Positions 4,424 through 36,710 of a stretch of 38,617 nucleotides of DNA are shown here, piece by piece. This stretch comes from an uncultured Bacteroidota bacterium (GTDB taxonomy: Bacteria > Bacteroidota > Bacteroidia > Chitinophagales > Chitinophagaceae). The stretch lies in assembly GCA_903924075.1 (NCBI GenBank), contig CAIYAG010000119.1, positions 1 to 38,617 on the forward strand, in the 5' to 3' direction. Within the stretch, counting starts at the first letter, position 1; the number at the start of each line of letters is the position of its first letter. A program made the position numbers and the translations under genes. The notes under the pieces are model-generated. The model was given only the letters and a program-made list of their open reading frames with translations. It had not been told where the DNA came from and searched no databases.

Positions 4424-4888
4424 ATGGCAGTATTAAAAGAGGGAAGTAAAGCACCCATTTTCAAAGCGGTTGACCAAAATGGCAAGACGATTTCATTGGC
4501 TGATTTTAAAGGGAAGAAAGTCATATTATATTTTTATCCAAAGGATGATACACCAGGATGTACAGCGCAAGCTTGCAACCTGAAGGATAATTATGCATTA
4601 TTAATAAAGAAAGGTTTTCAAGTGGTTGGTGTTAGCACAGATAGCGTGGCTAGCCACAAAAAATTCGAAGAAAAATTTGAATTGCCTTTCCCATTGGTTT
4701 CTGATGAGGACAAGAAAATTGTAGACAAATACAATCTTTGGGGCGAGAAAAAATTCATGGGGCGCACGTATATGGGCACCACAAGAACTACTTTCTTGAT
4801 CGACGAGACTGGTAAGATCGTGAAGATCATCGCGAAACCAGATACTAAAAATCATACAGCGGAAATTTTAGAAGCTTGGGGTTCATAG
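4424..4888 (+). CDS. bcp: Thioredoxin-dependent peroxiredoxin (Bcp/PrxQ type)
   Basis: This is a 154-aa cytoplasmic thiol peroxidase that reduces hydrogen peroxide and organic hydroperoxides using thioredoxin. FYPKDDTPGCTAQAC holds the peroxidatic Cys46 and, five residues on, resolving Cys51, the hallmark of the atypical 2-Cys PrxQ/Bcp class. ISLADFKGKKVILYFYP and GTTRTTFLIDETGKI are family-typical, and the length is normal. The ATG at 4424 is clear. It is divergent from carB, with a 139-bp shared upstream region, and is followed by its own strong terminator inside a 202-bp inverted-repeat element. Confidence 0.96.
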   Translation: MAVLKEGSKAPIFKAVDQNGKTISLADFKGKKVILYFYPKDDTPGCTAQACNLKDNYALLIKKGFQVVGVSTDSVASHKKFEEKFELPFPLVSDEDKKIVDKYNLWGEKKFMGRTYMGTTRTTFLIDETGKIVKIIAKPDTKNHTAEILEAWGS

Positions 4889-4961
4889 GGAGTTTTTAGT
4901 GAAGAGATAAGAGTGAAGAGTGAAGAATGAACGGGCAATCGCCTTTTAACAATGTTTTTTT

Positions 4962-4988
4962 AATCCCCGGCAGGCCGGGGATTTTTCT
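4962..4988 (+). terminator. Strong intrinsic terminator after bcp
   Basis: AATCCCCGGC and GCCGGGGATT form a perfect 10-bp GC-rich stem around a very short loop, followed by TTTTC. It lies 74 bp past the bcp stop and inside the 34-bp inverted repeat. Confidence 0.85.
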
Positions 4989-5007
4989 TTAGGAAGAAGT
5001 CTATCGT

Positions 5008-5046
5008 TAAACGCAACCCTTGGCAGCGCCAAGGGTTAATCGTTTA
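5008..5046. repeat. Second nested hairpin between bcp and the kinase
   Basis: TAAACG pairs with CGTTTA on the outside and AACCCTTGGC with GCCAAGGGTT on the inside, with a 3-nt loop and a small internal bulge. It has no T-run, so it is not an obvious terminator. It sits inside the 34-bp inverted repeat. Confidence 0.75.
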
Positions 5047-5169
5047 GACAATCTCTGTCCGTTCTTCACTCTTCACTCTTATCTCTTCACTAAAACACCT
5101 CAGAATGGCATACCTGTCTATAATAAAATCATTATTTTAACGTTCTTTACTTACCCAACAGGGATAACC

Positions 5170-6438
5170 ATGCAAAAAAGAAAAGAGCCCCTAGCTCAGA
5201 TATCTCTTTTTACTGCTACGCCTCAAATACCTTCAAACGACCAACAGCGATTAAAGGAGTTGTATAGTTATGAGATCTTGGATACCGAATCTGAGGACGA
5301 GTTCAATGATATTGTGATTTTGGCAGCAAGTATTGCAAAAACACCGATCGCTACCATTTCTTTTATTGATCAGGAGAGAGAATGGTTTAAGGCTAAAATT
5401 GGATTAGAACAAAATAGCTTCCCCAGAGAATTTTCGATCGCTTCATATTTTTTAGCATCAAAAGATATTTTTTTTGAGGTCACTGATACCATTGCTGAGG
5501 ATCGGTTTTCAGACAATCCCCTGGTTTCTGGTAAACCCAATATTCGTTTTATTGCTGGCATTCGATTATTAAATAAGCATGGGTACGCTGTTGGAGCGCT
5601 TTCGATCATGGATACTGAATCGCATGAGTTGAATGAGGAACAAATTTTTTTTCTACAAACATTAGCTCGGCAGATTATCAAATTACTAGAGCAGAAACAA
5701 TTGAATAAACAGTTGCACCAGCAGCGCGAAAAGTTGGAGCAACAAATGGAATTGCAAAATAGAATTCTCTCCATCATTGCACACGATGTAAGAAATCCGG
5801 TTGGTGCTGTAAAATCGATCATCGAATTAAGCGGTAAAAAATTGCTGAGTAAACAAGACTCTGCTGCCTTAATGCAGATGGCTGCAAAGCAGATCGATGG
5901 TACTGTGGAGTTGTTGAATAACCTGGTAGATTGGGGTTCGATGCAAATGAAGGGTAAGGGTTTTGAGTCAGAGAAGATCCATTTGTATACGCTGATCAGC
6001 AATATGTACAAAAGTTTTGAGGTGATGGCTTCTTTAAAATCAAATATCCTTGCAAACCTTGTAGATGACGATCTTTTTATCAATTCAGACATCAACGCAC
6101 TTCGTTTTATTTTGCGCAACCTAATCAGTAATGCAAATAAATTCACGAAAGACGGCGTCATTACTGTTTGTGCATCTCTTGAAACAGATGCTATATTATT
6201 ATCCGTTAGCGATAATGGAGTAGGGATGGACCCAGAAACAACCAATCACATTTTTGATGGCGAACAGAACGAAAGTGTAGCGGGCACACTCAATGAAAAA
6301 GGAAGTGGCCTGGGGTTGATACTTACGCGTGATTATATTGAAATGCTAGGAGGAACTATTTCTGTTGAAAGTGAGATGGGCAAAGGAACTTCGGTATACA
6401 TGCGCTTCCCGAATAAGATCCCGGCAAAATCAAAATAA
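5170..6438 (+). CDS. GAF-domain sensor histidine kinase (orphan)
   Basis: This is a cytoplasmic signalling kinase without transmembrane segments. The ORF track begins at TTG 5020 inside the inverted-repeat element; I prefer ATG 5170 (MQKRKEPLAQ), giving 422 aa. A GAF domain spans roughly residues 45-180 (TPIATISFIDQEREWFKAKIGL, then IRFIAGIRL...GALSIMD). A short coiled coil (about 175-200) leads to the H-box SIIAHDVRNP with phospho-acceptor His205. The ATPase domain shows the N box NLISNANKF, G1 DNGVGMD and G2 GSGLGL. There is no response regulator, receiver domain or DNA-binding domain next to it, so the partner is unknown. The Cys often present in the SFCAHAI stretch of related GAF domains is replaced here (SIASYFL). 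It converges on feoB with 18 bp between stops. Confidence 0.9.
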   Translation: MQKRKEPLAQISLFTATPQIPSNDQQRLKELYSYEILDTESEDEFNDIVILAASIAKTPIATISFIDQEREWFKAKIGLEQNSFPREFSIASYFLASKDIFFEVTDTIAEDRFSDNPLVSGKPNIRFIAGIRLLNKHGYAVGALSIMDTESHELNEEQIFFLQTLARQIIKLLEQKQLNKQLHQQREKLEQQMELQNRILSIIAHDVRNPVGAVKSIIELSGKKLLSKQDSAALMQMAAKQIDGTVELLNNLVDWGSMQMKGKGFESEKIHLYTLISNMYKSFEVMASLKSNILANLVDDDLFINSDINALRFILRNLISNANKFTKDGVITVCASLETDAILLSVSDNGVGMDPETTNHIFDGEQNESVAGTLNEKGSGLGLILTRDYIEMLGGTISVESEMGKGTSVYMRFPNKIPAKSK

Positions 6439-36528: not shown

Positions 36529-36540
36529 GCGGTAAAATTA

Positions 36541-36671
36541 AGATAAAAGATAAAAGATAAGAGTGAAGGGAGGAGAATAAGTGAGAAGTGAGGAGTGAGA
36601 AGTGAGAAGTGAGAAGTGAGAAGTGAGAAGTGAGGAGTGAGGAAGAAAGGAGTGAAAAGTGAAAAGTGAAA
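36541..36671. repeat. Heptamer tandem-repeat array upstream of tadA
   Basis: The region is a run of 7-mers: AGATAAA twice, AGATAAG, AGTGAAG, a degenerate stretch, then nine AGTGAGR units (36580-36642), an 8-mer, and three AGTGAAA units (36651-36671). The 14-mer AGATAAGAGTGAAG is shared exactly with the inverted-repeat element at 4894-5095. The heptamer period rules out a triplet coding explanation, and one strand is almost all purine. The array fills most of the 237-bp tadA / LruC-protein gap. Confidence 0.92.
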
Positions 36672-36710
36672 AATGGAGAATCCCTTTATTGGGGGGCGGG
36701 AGTGGGTCAA

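Follow-up and report, generated by a model that had tools for sequence, protein, structure and literature searches.

The gap between bcp (4424-4888, plus strand), an open reading frame for a thiol peroxidase of the AhpC/TSA family (Pfam AhpC-TSA, 7.8e-42), and the GAF-histidine kinase gene identified by domain search that follows in the same direction (ORF 5170-6438, plus strand) contains a perfect inverted repeat of heptamers that encloses further hairpins, which raises the question whether this is ordinary transcription termination or the trace of a mobile element. All positions refer to the window, that is, the whole 38.6-kb stretch of DNA analyzed here, which belongs to the draft genome of an uncultured Bacteroidota bacterium (3.44 Mb, 471 contigs, 94% complete). 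The answer at which we arrive is that the bcp element probably belongs to a class of heptad-armed insertions, as a MITE-like member without coding capacity, and that it is probably kept as a bidirectional terminator.

Structure of the bcp element

The exact 34-nt arms noticed in the original prediction are confirmed by an inverted-repeat scan of the 38.6-kb window at 4894-4927 and 5062-5095, and lengthen to 39 nt at 95% match. No other exact inverted repeat of the window whose arms lie within 600 bp comes near this length, the next one measuring 14 nt. Both arms are arrays of 7-mers with a period of 7 (AGTGAAG and TCTTCAC, respectively). The left arm (plus strand) consists of TTTT, the heptamers AGTGAAG, AGATAAG, AGTGAAG and AGTGAAG, and a final AA, and starts 5 bp past the TAG stop codon of bcp, whereas the right arm (minus strand) carries the same heptamers inverted, such that the outermost ends of the element read TTTT-AGTGAAG...CTTCACT-AAAA. 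The element is located upstream of the kinase ATG, between protein-coding genes and outside 23S rRNA, and contains no IVP/S23p gene.

The terminator and the separate long palindrome that had been predicted between the arms are both present. The left half-unit continues into an inner core (GAACGGGCAATCG...AACAATGTTTTTTTA; 4928-4961, plus strand), which the copy alignment reveals as common to the copies described below, and then into hairpin H2 (AATCCCCGGC-AGGCCGGGGATT; 4962-4983, plus strand), which was detected by the terminator scan, shows compensatory stem changes between copies and is followed by the T-rich tail TTTCTTT. This arrangement resembles an intrinsic terminator facing the transcripts that arrive from bcp. 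Hairpin H1 (AACCCTTGGC-(AGC)-GCCAAGGGTT; 5015-5037, minus strand), a palindrome nested in a longer imperfect one at about 5000-5050, is predicted to be the terminator hairpin of the right half-unit for minus-strand transcripts. Its stem comes in two classes, CCTAAGC and CCTTGGC, that interchange among copies through paired changes, and the T-run that follows it on the minus strand in many copies is absent from the bcp copy (TTGCGTT). In the right half-unit, the inner core (TTGTCTAAACGATT, minus strand; 5038-5051), delineated by copy alignments, is the best conserved motif outside the hairpins and is retained in the copies of the relatives G120 and G035.

Folded as RNA, the two strands of the element reach -106 kcal/mol (z -14) and -108 kcal/mol (z -16) compared with shuffled sequences, and the complementary ends pair as a long stem; no promoter-like site was found at the element in a scan of the locus. 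The element consists of two inverted half-units, each comprising a heptamer array, a GAACGGA core and a predicted terminator hairpin, with H2 expected to end the bcp mRNA.

The dispersed family and its genomic placement

Similarity searches of the genome with a 221-bp stretch, from which the copy numbers are derived, identified about 25 further near-complete places (E 1e-13 or better, mostly 73-84% identity) along with many partial copies, so that the search for other copies envisaged in the original prediction yielded about two dozen dispersed ones. The oriented copies share a plan in which TTTTAGTGAAG... heptamers, GAACGGAC, the core (TTGTCTAAACGATT), H1 and a spacer are followed by AAAGAAAAA, H2, TTAAAAAA, a second core (ATTGTCGCAAGACGATTGA), CCGTTC and inverted heptamers, the two halves being alike in inverted order. 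The stem sequences of H1 and H2 vary among the copies with pairing kept: changes on both sides of a stem occupy 68 cells of the copy alignment versus 26.5 +/- 3.9 in shuffles, the covariation score is 0.301 versus 0.132 (slid controls at or below 0.085), and 12 of the 15 pairs with both-side changes fall in H1 and H2. Additional helices in the core were considered and rejected as poorly supported, the candidate short hairpins being only 74-80% paired.

The heptamer variants AGTGAAG, AGATAAG, AACGAAG and AGTTAAG are shared more within the two arms of a copy than across copies, with 2.9 mismatches in 28 within a copy versus 3.9 between copies (permutation p = 0.006), which lends modest support to the active copy correction suspected from the exact match of the arms. 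Target-site duplication was not detected in 20 copies, where the mean flanking direct match is 2.25 versus 2.05 for random sequence. An exact search with the core pattern, tried as a measure of the range of the family, was abandoned after producing two matches that are probably due to chance. Many contigs of this draft genome (G000), including C8, C17, C37, C433 and C436, start or stop within AGTGAAG arrays, and the true number of elements is therefore probably underestimated.

Among the 24 copies for which both neighbors are known (long ORFs), 21 are located between convergent genes, usually spanning the whole gap from stop codon to stop codon, compared with a background of 4 convergent pairs among 35 in the window and 11 among 170 in other loci; the bcp copy is one of the three between co-oriented genes. 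Convergent placement, together with the two hairpins, speaks for a bidirectional terminator, or else for elements that survive only where a terminator does no harm. The former function in transcripts is predicted and appears likely, and the copies would then survive between convergent stop codons because their hairpins terminate transcription in both directions. For the bcp copy, the co-oriented neighbors and the H1 hairpin without a T-run count against this reading. The earlier doubt that ordinary termination could account for the structure is only half justified, the inside being a pair of convergent terminators. The non-coding members would exemplify a repeat that came to supply convergent genes with a ready double terminator, its stems changing while pairing is preserved.

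Insertion sites in relatives and 23S-IVP genes

The bcp-kinase gene order is kept in the congeners G035, G120, G108, G119 and G021. In G120, the site holds an orthologous element with a different H2 stem (CCCTAGGC versus CCCCGGC) and other arm heptamers, and in G035, a different insert that consists of one hairpin flanked by heptamer arrays. The empty site to be looked for in close relatives is represented by G108, G119 and G021, where a plain terminator stands free of heptamers. A second locus, between convergent dksA and ABC transporter genes, has a two-hairpin element with differing arms and stems in G000 and G035, an insert with TTCAAAA-type arms in G109, and a terminator with a one-sided array in G108, G119 and G123; G033 and G021 are empty. 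The differing inserts and empty sites at these two loci imply insertion and exchange of content since the species split. At both loci, the orientation of the inner segment is identical among orthologues and no inversion was seen, so that the suspected inversion finds no support; the possibility of a sequence that has no other copies and is identical in distant relatives, which would have pointed to a fixed local structure, fails on both counts. At the level of sequence comparison, we regard the dispersal, the compensatory structure, the empty sites and the near-exclusive convergent placement as established.

One copy of the family, on contig C34 (21524-22114), at first matches the other copies, through arm, core and H1 (89% over 80 bp, E 4e-23); in place of the second half, it contains a gene and closes with about thirteen inverted heptamers. 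The product belongs to PF05635, the 23S rRNA-intervening sequence protein (IVP) family of four-helix bundles, and is similar to PDB 2rld. The genome has only one other PF05635 gene, which sits between nuoF and nuoG within inverted arms of the heptamer TTCAAAA. Across 75 IVP genes from the genus, the flanking DNA is periodic only at lags 7 and 14, and the inverted-arm score is 21.5 for a gene's own pair of arms versus 11.4 for mispaired arms (58 of the 75 are above the 95th percentile). Among 74 IVP genes, 51% have lag 7 on both sides, compared with 2% among 57 control genes. The same inverted, 7-periodic arms are found at 30 IVP loci across the phylum, in which the unit has a few fixed and a few free letters per 7 nt, and the letters vary by element. 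PF05635 genes are present above the cut-off in 222 of the 297 sampled genomes of the phylum, reaching at least 15 per genome among the matches listed. To our knowledge, IVP genes have no known function, and we do not know of PF05635 as a transposase.

Some IVP genes are armless. Armless loci of the phylum sample were considered as candidate 23S intervening sequences and dismissed, as none of the 8 stretches tested matched Rfam. In several congeners, a distinct and conserved line of IVP genes (L127-L131) adjoins a dapF-like gene; it lacks heptad arms and looks as though it had been domesticated. We also observe a long CTTCACT/AGTGAAG array (L062, contig C10 of G052) in a species of another family that has three IVP genes.

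The nuoF-nuoG site is occupied by an IVP gene with arms in G000, G066 and G070 and is empty (8 nt) in G021. In G035, the IVP gene is deleted and its last codons and right arm remain, G027 and G107 have a solo right arm, and G108, G120 and G123 have shorter remnants. A non-coding insert with inverted copies of a different heptamer is present in G033 and, judging from its make-up, is the counterpart of the bcp element, that is, arms without a gene. Differently armed IVP elements are also found upstream of one gene that looks like rplS in three species (L108, L113 and L115 in G083, G103 and G117), suggesting a hot spot that resembles nuoF-nuoG.

Given that the C34 copy has the make-up described above and that IVP genes of the phylum have similar arms, it is moderately likely that the bcp element is the non-coding representative of a class of heptad-armed insertions in which the coding members contain a gene for 23S-IVP (PF05635). 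Either the IVP protein or host repair at the arms would copy the cassettes between sites and keep the arms alike; this step, which implies no classical transposase, is the least certain one, and a role of IVP as the driver of the spread is plausible but unproven. As a tentative extension, IVP proteins of the phylum might be the proteins of widespread small mobile elements whose arms are recognized through the spacing of 7 nt and not as one particular sequence, and whose cassettes, comprising either their own gene or double terminators, are copied between intergenic sites with both arms kept alike, the 23S rRNA intervening sequences being the rRNA-inserted branch. If so, the bcp element would belong to a mobile system driven by IVP, as its non-coding branch. 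The inverted 7-nt-periodic arms, empty sites, solo-arm scars and non-coding derivatives tie IVP genes to insertion and make the heptad-armed IVP loci a concrete experimental system for how 23S intervening sequences move.

Known systems and alternative explanations

The larger 23S intervening sequences have complementary terminal stems and an IVP/S23p gene, and have long been suspected to be mobile (PMC4990558). Like these sequences, for example the one with a 28-bp stem in Coxiella burnetii (PMC4990558), the elements analyzed here are short and have complementary, stem-forming ends; many 23S intervening sequences contain an IVP/S23p gene, as the C34 copy does, and they are sporadic and proposed to be mobile (PMC4990558). 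In contrast, the bcp-type elements are intergenic and their arms are 7-nt-periodic with changing sequence, and the bcp copy holds two terminators and no gene. The BrickBuilt MITE of Porphyromonas gingivalis (PMC4596501), also from Bacteroidota, combines tandem repeats and inverted ends without an internal transposase, but its 23-nt repeats are central and its ends resemble those of other MITEs and IS, whereas here the 7-nt arrays are themselves the ends. The TAACTGA heptamers of Beggiatoaceae, cyanobacteria and some Bacteroidetes (PMC4679880) are likewise intergenic 7-nt direct repeats near genes, present at several sites per genome, with unexplained spread; they differ in being one fixed heptamer, mostly upstream of start codons and nearly always without an inverted partner, and in the text consulted they are not described as enclosing hairpins or an IVP gene. 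The Avd protein of diversity-generating retroelements is a relative of PF05635 (PMC10053308). No compared system unites inverted arms with a heptad period and changing sequence, contents that can be exchanged and IVP genes at intergenic positions, and no description of heptad-armed IVP elements was found in the literature searched, with most subscription journals outside its reach.

There is a structural parallel with REPINs, which are non-coding inverted hairpin pairs (PMC3116915): the element has two inverted hairpin units, a correspondence in structure only, and shares with REPINs and BIMEs associated with RAYT (PMC3116915, PMC2817692) a conserved flanking motif, high copy number, extragenic location and mobile appearance. 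It is also short, non-coding and multicopy with terminal inverted repeats, as MITEs are, so that the original suggestion of a MITE-like relic largely holds with respect to dispersed copies, empty orthologous sites and inverted terminal arms, but neither target-site duplication nor, in a search directed at Y1 enzymes, a responsible transposase was found. Movement of a REPIN or MITE in trans by an unseen transposase of the Y1/RAYT or DDE type nevertheless seems improbable. The stems vary freely here, unlike the REP hairpin, whose sequence is conserved; the arms consist of heptamers; target duplication was not found; and the Y1 (RAYT) transposase, PF01797, was not detected in this 94%-complete draft by a search that was positive in control genomes, because of which the RAYT/REPIN identity was rejected. 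A dispersed regulatory RNA, in which the whole 200 nt form one fold with a biochemical role beyond termination, would accommodate the strong folding and the covariation and is still harder to accept: the fold is equally strong on either strand, the conserved unpaired core is short and its mini-hairpins weak, there is no promoter-like site, and Rfam gives nothing at the gathering level near the locus, where three sub-threshold matches were judged to be chance and a known RNA family was discarded. A fixed bidirectional terminator of local origin, with no repeat element involved, could explain the T-run hairpins and the convergent placement, but is scarcely conceivable, being refuted by about two dozen copies with a common non-hairpin core and by the empty sites in relatives.

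A rather doubtful, though less remote, alternative is that the heptamer arrays exist in their own right in the 3' UTRs of this clade and grow by slippage, such that a convergent pair yields an inverted repeat, the two-hairpin inside spreads by gene conversion rather than transposition, and the IVP genes are passengers. Among one-sided arrays, many of which sit past stop codons, 27 read outward from a gene 3' end and 4 in the opposite direction (gene calls are ORF-based, the genomes of relatives are drafts, and arrays are often at contig ends), which indicates that an array could grow on its own, without an element. G108 and G120 have long composite arrays that are one-sided, and these, together with similar arms around different inserts at one locus and the lack of a detectable target duplication, point the same way, as do arrays without IVP: AGTGAAG arrays are present in G108, G109, G119, G120 and G123, none of which has a PF05635 match, and G120 even has two-hairpin elements. 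IVP is thus not required for the presence of arrays or elements, and these five genomes contradict a strict dependence of arrays on IVP. Against the 3' UTR origin, the common core at about 24 unrelated sites implies that the inside was copied; inverted arms also occur between co-oriented genes and within operons (nuoF-IVP-nuoG), which two 3' UTRs cannot explain; and two-sided arms are far more common at IVP genes than at control genes. IVP may have been lost from the five array-bearing congeners, or it may be a passenger.

Within the window, a second, one-sided array at 36540-36680, between two minus-strand genes, consists of three AAGATAA units followed by AGTGAGA, AGTGAGG and AGTGAAA units; it is followed by a terminator-like hairpin and has no inverted partner nearby. 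In G108, which has no IVP and no two-hairpin elements in the loci seen, long composite one-sided arrays (L182-L185) of AGTGAAG and AGGAGGAAGAAGAAA blocks directly follow stop codons. Finally, on contig C27 of G120 (L191, 381-778), inverted heptamer arrays surround an ORF of about 82 codons whose product resembles ribbon-helix-helix proteins of the antitoxin type.
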